From assembly GCF_023243045.1 (NCBI RefSeq), contig NZ_JALKFX010000002.1, positions 58,042 through 121,074 on the forward strand: a DNA stretch of 63,033 nucleotides, written 5' to 3'. The notes below the pieces were generated by a model. That model was given only the letters and a program-made list of their open reading frames with translations, searched no databases and was not told the origin of the DNA. The DNA comes from Frankia sp. AgB32 (GTDB lineage Bacteria; Actinomycetota; Actinomycetes; Frankiales; Frankiaceae). Shown piece after piece: positions 50,413-52,245 of this stretch (positions are counted from its first letter, which is position 1; each line of letters opens with the position of its first letter). A program made the position numbers and the translations under genes.

Positions 50413-51771
50413 CTAGTTGGCCATGTCGACGAATCGGGAGTAGTGCCCCTGGAAGGCGACCGTCACGGTGCCGGTCGGCCCGTTGCGGTGCTTCGCGATG
50501 ATCAGATCGGCCTCGCCGGCGCGGGCCGACTCCTTTTCGACCGTGTCCTCCCGGTACAGCAGGATCACCGCGTCCGCGTCCTGCTCAAGGCTTCCGGACT
50601 CGCGCAGGTCGGAGACCTGCGGACGCTTGTCCGCCCGCTGCTCGGAGGCACGGTTGAGCTGCGAGATCGCGACGACCGGGACCTCCAGCTCCTTGGCCAG
50701 CAGCTTCAACGACCGGGAGATCTCGCTGACCTCCTGCTGGCGGCTTTCGACCTTCTTCGGCGACGACATGAGCTGCAGGTAGTCGAGGATGACCAGGCGC
50801 AGCTCGTTGCGCTGCTTCAGCCGTCGGGCCTTGGCCCGGATCTCCATCATGGTCAGATGGGGGCTGTCGTCGATGAACAGCGGCGCCTCGGACACCTCGC
50901 CCATCCGGCGGGCAAGTCGGCCCCAGTCGTCATCGGTGAGCCGGCCGGTGCGGATGTTCTGCAGCGACACCCGCGCCTCCGCGGACAGCAGCCGCATGGT
51001 GATCTCCATCCGGCTCATCTCCAGCGAGAAGATGACCGAGGTCATCCCGTTCTTGATCGACGCCGCCCGGGCGAAGTCCAGGCCCAGGGTCGACTTGCCC
51101 ACGGCCGGACGGGCCGCGACGATCCACAGCTGGCCGCCGTGCAGGCCGTTGGTGAGCTCGTCGAGGTCGGTGAAGCCGGTCGGCACGCCGGTGAGCGTCC
51201 CTTCATGACCGGCGATCGACTCGATCTCCTCCAGGGTGGGATGGAGCAGGTCCGCCAGCGCGGCGTAGTCGTCGTTCGACCGCCGTTCGGTGACCTCGTA
51301 GACGGCGGCCTGGGCGCGGTCGACGACGTCGCTGACGTCGGGCGCGGCGCCGTAGGCGAGCTGGACGATGCGGGTGCCCGCCTCGGCGAGGCGGCGCAGC
51401 ACCGCCTTCTCCGCGACGATGCGAGCGTAGTAACCGGCGTTGGCGGCGGTGGGCACACTGGAGATCAGGGTGTGCATGTAGCCCGGGCCGCCGACGCGTT
51501 CGAGCTGGTCGCGACGACTGAGCTCGGCGGCGACGCTGATGACGTCGGCGGGCTCGCCCCGGCCGTACAGGTCACCGATGACCTCGTAGACGATCCCGTG
51601 CGCCGGCCGGTAGAAGTCCCCGATCTGCAGGACCTCGACCACGTCGGCGATGGCGTCCTTCGACAGCAGCATGCCGCCGAGCACGCTCTGCTCGGCCGGG
51701 AGGTCCTGCGGCGGGGTTCGGTCGAACTCCGCGGCGCCCCCGCCTGCGCGCGAGATCTCAGTGACGCTCAT
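50413..51771 (-). CDS. dnaB: Replicative DNA helicase DnaB
   Basis: 452 residues. The N-terminal primase-interacting domain reads PPQDLPAEQSVLGGMLLSKDAI; the RecA-like C-domain has Walker A in ARPAVGKSTLGLDFARAA, Walker B in LRLVILDYLQLM and SQLNRASEQRADKRPQVSDLRESG. It has normal length with no intein, unlike several actinobacterial dnaB genes. GGGAGGG precedes the ATG. It lies 560 bases beyond rplI, across a DnaA-box cluster. Confidence 0.97.
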   Translation of the reverse strand: MSVTEISRAGGGAAEFDRTPPQDLPAEQSVLGGMLLSKDAIADVVEVLQIGDFYRPAHGIVYEVIGDLYGRGEPADVISVAAELSRRDQLERVGGPGYMHTLISSVPTAANAGYYARIVAEKAVLRRLAEAGTRIVQLAYGAAPDVSDVVDRAQAAVYEVTERRSNDDYAALADLLHPTLEEIESIAGHEGTLTGVPTGFTDLDELTNGLHGGQLWIVAARPAVGKSTLGLDFARAASIKNGMTSVIFSLEMSRMEITMRLLSAEARVSLQNIRTGRLTDDDWGRLARRMGEVSEAPLFIDDSPHLTMMEIRAKARRLKQRNELRLVILDYLQLMSSPKKVESRQQEVSEISRSLKLLAKELEVPVVAISQLNRASEQRADKRPQVSDLRESGSLEQDADAVILLYREDTVEKESARAGEADLIIAKHRNGPTGTVTVAFQGHYSRFVDMAN

Positions 51772-52195
51772 GACGCGCCCTCCCGCCTGCAGCGATCCAT
51801 CTACCCAAAGATCTGAAGTGCCCAGTGATCTGACTGCCCGGAGATCCGTATTCGAACACATGTTCGTACAGGCCGGAGCGGCGGTCAACGGGCCGCGCCG
51901 CATGGTGCGCGGCACCGCCGTGGGGTGGCCGCCGCGCGGATGGCACCCCAGTCTGGCGGCCTGACCTTATGGATCGGCAGCCACCCCCGCCAAAAAGTTA
52001 TCCACAGGCTCTTGTGGAAAAGCTGTGGGTAACTGCCGCGAACCTGGGGAGAAGCTCGGGACGAACGTGCCTCTCCTGTGGATAACGGGAGTCGGCATCC
52101 CGGACAAATCCAGGTGCGGCGCGGCCCCGCCGGGAACCCGCCTGTGGATAACTAGCCGGCAAAAAGATTTTGGGAACGGTCGGGCCGGGGAACGC
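51772..52195. other. rplI-dnaB intergenic region with DnaA boxes
   Basis: A 560-base gap in all (51772-52331). The dnaB-proximal ~225 bases hold no gene. A DnaA-box cluster occupies 51998-52151, AT-rich islands such as GGCAAAAAGATTTTGG lie beside it (52158-52173), and the rplI terminators occupy 52196-52310. Confidence 0.6.
51998..52151. promoter_or_regulatory. Cluster of DnaA boxes upstream of dnaB
   Basis: Perfect TTATCCACA at 51998-52006 (plus strand), and TGTGGATAA at 52077-52085 and 52143-52151 (minus strand). One-mismatch sites TGTGGAAAA (52013-52021) and TGTGGGTAA (52024-52032) lie between. Five boxes in 154 bases is far above chance in such GC-rich DNA. It may make dnaB expression DnaA-dependent, titrate DnaA, or take part in origin function. 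Confidence 0.75.
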
Positions 52196-52245
52196 GAACT
52201 CCCCCGGGCCGACCGCCACACGGGCGAGTCGATCCGGGGGAGTTC
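52196..52245 (-). terminator. Long-stem terminator downstream of rplI
   Basis: GAACTCCCCCGG (52196-52207) pairs perfectly with CCGGGGGAGTTC (52234-52245) around a 26-base loop. Confidence 0.75.

Follow-up and report, generated by a model that had tools for sequence, protein, structure and literature searches.

A conserved, helically phased array of DnaA boxes upstream of dnaB in Frankia and other Actinomycetes

Why would recognition sites for the initiator protein DnaA cluster between rplI and dnaB, the genes for ribosomal protein L9 and the replicative helicase, in Frankia sp. AgB32? Three answers were proposed in the sequence-only reading of this DNA, namely regulation of dnaB by DnaA, a site of DnaA titration or reactivation, and a secondary, origin-like element. 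The analysis described here lends the best support to regulation of dnaB, leaves titration open and does not support a secondary origin. The starting observation itself is sound: a motif scan recovers five DnaA boxes at 51998-52151 of the window (that is, the whole stretch of 63,033 nucleotides analysed), three of them perfect and two with one mismatch, and matches to the family models TIGR00158 and TIGR00665 bear out the identities of the flanking genes (Table 1). The total number of boxes in the window is only mildly unusual, given that 7 sites at no more than one mismatch compare with a mean of 1.46 in 100 shuffles and that 1 of the 100 shuffles also reached 7; the striking part is the clustering. 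The assembly (6,682,039 bases) contains 17 perfect sites vs 6 matches to a reversed control pattern, and 276 vs 136 when up to one mismatch is allowed; at the density of sites in the assembly, a simple Poisson expectation amounts to about 1.5e-8 five-box clusters of the same span and 1.2e-6 perfect-box trios.

Table 1. Features of the rplI-dnaB region, in window coordinates
Feature	Position	Strand	Basis and remarks
dnaB, replicative DNA helicase	50413..51771	-	TIGR00665, 535 bits; PF03796/PF00772
dnaB start codon	51769-51771	-	read from sequence; GGAGGG ribosome-binding site directly upstream
LexA (SOS) box, ACGAACATGTGTTCGA	51852..51867	-	11/12 consensus positions; sequence only
-35-like TTGACC of putative dnaB promoter	51883..51888	-	promoter activity presumed
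DnaA box 5, perfect, TTATCCACA	51998..52006	+	motif scan; inverted relative to the others
DnaA box 4, one mismatch, TTTTCCACA	52013..52021	-	11 bp to box 3, 15 bp to box 5
DnaA box 3, one mismatch, TTACCCACA	52024..52032	-	motif scan
Putative weak in-phase site B, TTCTCCCCA	52045..52053	-	2 mismatches; 21 bp to box 3
Putative weak in-phase site A, TCGTCCCGA	52056..52064	-	4 mismatches; 21 bp to box 2, 11 bp to site B
DnaA box 2, perfect, TTATCCACA	52077..52085	-	53 bp to box 3
DnaA box 1, perfect, TTATCCACA	52143..52151	-	66 bp to box 2
Possible terminator of the operon ending in rplI	52177..52215	-	GC-rich inverted repeat, then T-rich stretch; putative
rplI, ribosomal protein L9	52332..52778	-	TIGR00158

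So is the cluster a peculiarity of a single genome? The sequence-only reading had named a lack of conservation in close relatives as one possible refutation, and conserved the boxes are. The register of 65/66, 53, 11 and 15 bp is kept by recognisable boxes in 12 of 12 same-genus genomes that span the rplI-dnaB gap (AgB32 is counted among them; G006, whose contig ends at rplI, was left out), with one or two of the five boxes missing at the cut-off of no more than one mismatch in some of them (box 2 in G012 and G003, boxes 2 and 3 in G010). Between boxes 2 and 3, the aligned Frankiaceae regions share TCCCCA at site B in 21 of 21 rows; at site A, TCC is likewise present in all 21, and the majority have GTCCC. 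In the window, these two sites and the boxes that flank them are spaced by 21, 11 and 21 bp, in step with the strong boxes, and judging by this placement DnaA might occupy both weak sites as well. The same-family genomes G015 and G018, which were left out of the 21 rows, have one box each and no LexA box. Frankia gtarii, the closest named genome among the best 80 of 586 loci, has five boxes and a DnaB N-terminus that is 88% identical.

To which of the two neighbours do the boxes belong? Within 600 bp of the dnaB start, a box at no more than one mismatch is present in 28 of 30 loci that represent 11 family labels, and only 6 of the same 30 have rplI in the 1.5 kb upstream. Among 44 rplI loci without dnaB in the downstream stretch retrieved (about 1.5 kb in most cases, much less in two), 40 are box-free there; where dnaB does adjoin rplI, at least one box is found in 20 of 24 loci (L034, L040, L085 and L097 have none). 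A relationship of the boxes to rplI is thus ruled out because they accompany dnaB where the two genes are apart. This observation also bears on the idea that DnaA bound to the array is a roadblock or terminator for the upstream ribosomal-protein operon. It is true that the Frankia array follows the possible rplI terminator, the inverted-repeat arms of which (52177-52190 and 52202-52215) are 93% complementary, and that boxes 4 and 5 can form a terminator-like hairpin (1 found vs 0.5 expected); the inverted repeat at 52177-52215 itself is absent from the output of the terminator scan. However, the boxes keep to dnaB rather than to rplI where the two genes are separated, and we give this idea a negligible chance.

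The attachment of the boxes to dnaB extends to the named genomes, represented by the best 80 of 586 confirmed loci, a selection that for this very reason leans to relatives of the Frankia DnaB; with L183 and L185 left out for having too little upstream DNA, 70 of the remaining 78 loci have a box upstream of dnaB. In these 78, box density is 3.70 per kb in the 600 bp upstream of dnaB, 0.061 per kb farther upstream and 0.039 per kb within the gene. Because most of the farther-upstream DNA probably encodes protein, the reversed pattern makes for a better comparison, and it yields 10 matches upstream of dnaB vs 173 for the true boxes. A pool of 127 loci, made up of the 30 other loci, 76 of the 78 named ones (from the best 80 of 586; L147 and L213 were left out) and the 21 Frankiaceae rows, with 600 bp of upstream sequence taken from each locus of the former two groups and at most 900 bp of intergenic sequence from each Frankiaceae row, includes 118 loci with at least one box and 86 with two or more, which leaves 9 with none and 41 with fewer than two; the 24 adjacent rplI-dnaB loci stand outside this pool. 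Beyond the class Actinomycetes, boxes are found at dnaB in only 2 of 20 genomes of the phylum (hand-picked, like the 30 loci, and mostly complete), so that an extension of the array to these groups is ruled out for the consensus used here, which may differ there. That DnaA sites recur before dnaB in most of the actinomycetes examined suggests a conserved connection of the initiator with the helicase gene, not a second origin.

The arrangement of the boxes is as telling as their location. In the pool of 127 loci (76 of them from the best 80 of 586), 268 boxes are in the dnaB sense vs 55 in antisense (83% dnaB-sense), and same-strand spacings between 10 and 140 bp cluster near multiples of 10.7 bp, with the gaps between nearly empty. 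For 99 unique label/spacing pairs from this pool, the phasing R at 10.7 bp is 0.69 (null 99.9%, 0.33), and 85 pairs from outside the Frankiaceae give 0.68; in these sets, labels f4 and f19 were merged by guess with Mycobacteriaceae and Micromonosporaceae, 14 mixed-family loci count as one label, and the reading of family labels is in part our own deduction. When one genome is drawn per family label and adjacent spacings alone are used (about 18), the mean R is 0.725 and the lowest draw 0.56, with the 99% null at 0.53. Opposite-strand boxes are phased too (R 0.66; null 99%, 0.43), and so are two-mismatch sites when their distance is taken from the strong boxes (R 0.58 at 10.9 bp; null 99%, 0.18). 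There is an adverse control, in that the reversed pattern at no more than two mismatches also shows weak phasing to strong boxes (R 0.37, p 0.0125, n 60); for a scrambled pattern, phasing was not found (R 0.44, p 0.475, n 21).

Such spacing suggests that DnaA assembles cooperatively along one side of the helix, cooperativity being the presumable source of the phasing. The phasing could represent an inherited register or selection, with part of it due to common descent; spacings that differ by whole turns between families would favour selection. At oriC, according to the accessible text of one study, full-turn changes between boxes are tolerated and part-turn ones are not (PMC4285127). The corresponding figures for 22 genomes, obtained from the 2-kb stretch beyond the dnaA C-terminal domain, are R 0.40 (null 99%, 0.35) and 48 boxes in one orientation vs 54 in the other; that these stretches are oriC is assumed, and several show only one or two boxes at the cut-off.

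Could the array nevertheless be a secondary or cryptic origin of replication? Strong boxes accompanied by phased weak sites do resemble part of an orisome, but the boxes at dnaB are co-oriented and far more strictly phased than those at oriC. Furthermore, the sole PF08299 (dnaA) match of the genome lies on a different contig (C155:67748), so the array is not adjacent to dnaA, and about 0.7-1 kb beyond dnaA there is an oriC-like cluster of six boxes, one of them a perfect TTATCCACA and one TTGTCCACA. Contig C66, which has three perfect boxes, is ruled out as the seat of oriC because no dnaA is among the ORFs listed there and both dnaA and the oriC-like cluster are on C155. An AT-rich unwinding element was not found at the array: the lowest GC content in any 30 bp of the rplI-dnaB intergenic region is 0.37, vs 0.20 at the cluster beside dnaA. 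The AT-rich islands that had been noted at first are weak, and the box cluster has a GC content of 0.62. The GC skew around the array is flat in 7-kb steps (-0.007 and +0.006), which on one draft contig is a weak test. With no unwinding element at the array and an oriC-like cluster at dnaA, a second origin is very improbable.

The location of dnaB in the chromosome matters more for titration. The distance between dnaB and dnaA is about 41-46 kb in G003, G005 and G010 and 24-144 kb in the other genomes of the class for which it is known exactly (in G376 it is probably 0.2-0.3 Mb, the length being known only in rounded form, and two boxes are still present), and the link of the boxes to dnaB is accordingly only partly separable from a link to the neighbourhood of oriC. 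The array is a box cluster of putative affinity that lies near oriC yet outside it. In the same three complete same-genus genomes, 23 of 47 (G005), 19 of 46 (G003) and 14 of 40 (G010) TTRTCCACA sites crowd within 85 kb of dnaA. These facts would suit a sink akin to datA or to Streptomyces D78, whereby the array binds or inactivates DnaA near oriC and its early duplication damps re-initiation, with the position at dnaB a matter of history. So would the three perfect boxes of the array vs one at the oriC cluster of AgB32 (G000), or vs two if one also counts TTGTCCACA, listed in the accessible part of PMC4285127 as the box with high affinity in M. tuberculosis and S. coelicolor. Clusters in Streptomyces and Bacillus are, moreover, cited as repressing untimely initiation, so far as the available texts go (PMC10950094, PMC5742627). 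What a sink does not require is placement directly upstream of dnaB, and this is where, in most families, the majority of loci have their boxes, frequently with no rplI alongside. Outside the class, dnaB is 27-64 kb from dnaA in 12 of 18 measured genomes of the phylum, but only 2 of these 12 have boxes. We regard a sink as an unlikely primary function, albeit one that deserves to be kept in view. A DARS-like site, which would reactivate DnaA by promoting ADP-to-ATP exchange, might be recognised in the closely spaced co-oriented and inverted boxes with conserved sequence between them; however, the defining activity is not legible from sequence and the attachment to dnaB would go unexplained, and we consider the chances of such a site slim.

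Other groups of boxes are seen in these genomes. A second array lies 14-21 kb from dnaB (L138:1670-1815, at 7432.7 kb in G005; L145:1501-1601; L146:1405-1451): G005 has four boxes spaced by 45-47 bp, G003 has three with a spacing of 46 bp, and G010 has two with a spacing of 38 bp. The G005 copy directly follows the 3' end of a gene for a ParA/MinD-like ATPase and precedes a short ORF that has no match in Pfam. On the oriC side of dnaB, at a distance of about 12 kb, there are two to three TTGTCCACA boxes at intervals of 12-21 bp (L137:3947-3988 in G000; L139:1559-1588 in G005, in the latter portion of a PadR-like ORF). Across oriC, some 80 kb from dnaA, three boxes fall within 43 bp just past the 3' end of an aminotransferase gene (L140:1501-1543, at 81.8 kb in G005), and a similar trio at C66:22399-22441 of G000 may be the same site. 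Far from oriC, there is a box pair with a spacing of 99 bp (G005 C1:737733-737840, L141; G010 C1:362880-362987; G003 C1:4888666-4888773).

What, then, lies between the array and dnaB? A LexA box that matches at least 11 of 12 consensus positions is present in 21 of 23 same-family regions, the exceptions being G015 and G018, and TTGAC begins 21-22 bp ahead of it in 20 of the 21 Frankiaceae rows. A sigma-70 consensus scan found no promoter. LexA-like boxes (at least 10 of 12) occur near dnaB in 38 of 78 named loci, drawn from the best 80 of 586, which makes dnaB a possible member of the SOS response in several families. LexA would presumably repress dnaB. In the accessible text of PMC8151990, M. 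tuberculosis dnaB is listed among the genes for which an SOS box is annotated or putative; the word dnaB is absent from a paper on S. venezuelae LexA (PMC9380542). Across families, the nearest dnaB-sense DnaA box is 93-383 bp from the LexA box, and phasing of this distance was not found: R is 0.31, below the 95% null of 0.38, and the idea of a promoter held in phase with the array was rejected. It is therefore unlikely that the array touches RNA polymerase in any fixed way. A rigid array at a drifting distance from the promoter would suit a sink. Nothing speaks as strongly against a simple activator as this variability, which is also the main reason why titration retains an appreciable minority share of our confidence; the concentration of boxes near oriC likewise keeps titration open.

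With all this in mind, we propose, with a probability of roughly 0.6, that DnaA binds the array to control dnaB from upstream, perhaps with some titration of DnaA as a by-product. The boxes lie within a few hundred base pairs upstream of dnaB, and the case for regulation is the best supported because they track this gene across different neighbourhoods and because mycobacterial DnaA binds upstream of dnaB. Specifically, in the accessible part of PMC7738170, the region upstream of dnaB is among the five top regions bound in vitro by DnaA of M. tuberculosis and in vivo by that of M. smegmatis, and a mycobacterial DnaA mutant with less binding there under-expresses dnaB. The DnaA regulon of Caulobacter likewise includes dnaB, to go by the available text of PMC8203912. 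By analogy with that one mycobacterial mutant, the sign of the regulation in Frankia is suggested to be positive.

Under this hypothesis, Frankia DnaA would bind the strong boxes, and the weak in-phase sites between them would be filled via cooperative contacts on one face of the helix. The resulting DnaA oligomer would be short, would have a defined orientation and would stop some 80-380 bp before the LexA-controlled dnaB promoter. Occupancy of the array could then serve as a readout of the amount of (active) DnaA to which helicase synthesis is tuned, and SOS induction would raise dnaB via LexA, independently of the array. The bound array would also detain several molecules of DnaA in the vicinity of oriC and should thus titrate the protein mildly. 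The most likely function, as far as the arrangement of sites indicates, would be tuning of dnaB transcription from a LexA-controlled promoter combined with retention of DnaA. A bolder and quite tentative generalization, which we think may well prove wrong, is that throughout the class DnaA has a second assembly platform of its own upstream of dnaB, stricter in phase and orientation than oriC, on which a one-face filament would couple helicase supply and DnaA availability to initiation, with a LexA-mediated damage override in several families.

The way in which initiator activity, helicase supply and DNA damage are matched in slow-growing or filamentous actinomycetes is, to our knowledge, poorly understood. 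A conserved phased array at dnaB would extend the mycobacterial binding observation to a class-wide rule, and the Frankia array supplies exact sequences for mutation. No description of a class-wide phased dnaB array was found in the literature searched, which largely excluded subscription journals. Among the known systems, several clusters of high-affinity boxes around the oriC of S. coelicolor, namely H69, H24 and D78, were reportedly described by Smulczyk-Krawczyszyn et al. in 2006. D78 is said to act on the frequency of initiation, and we know of no role for it at dnaB; H24, we suspect, is the site upstream of dnaB. Nor do we know of any attachment to dnaB of E. coli datA or the B. subtilis clusters. 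From the accessible texts, these are box clusters outside oriC, like the present array with its putative activity (PMC10950094, PMC5742627). In Caulobacter crescentus, DnaA boxes are predicted upstream of dnaB, as here, in a different phylum and with no phased array described in the available part of the source (PMC8203912). The kind of site is already known given that DnaA binding upstream of dnaB was reported for mycobacteria, and the region concerned in M. tuberculosis and M. smegmatis precedes the same gene in the same position. In the portion of that report available, neither a phased array nor orientation nor conservation beyond mycobacteria is described (dnaB of Caulobacter is mentioned); unlike the mycobacterial site as described there, the Frankia array has a rigid, five-box form (PMC7738170).
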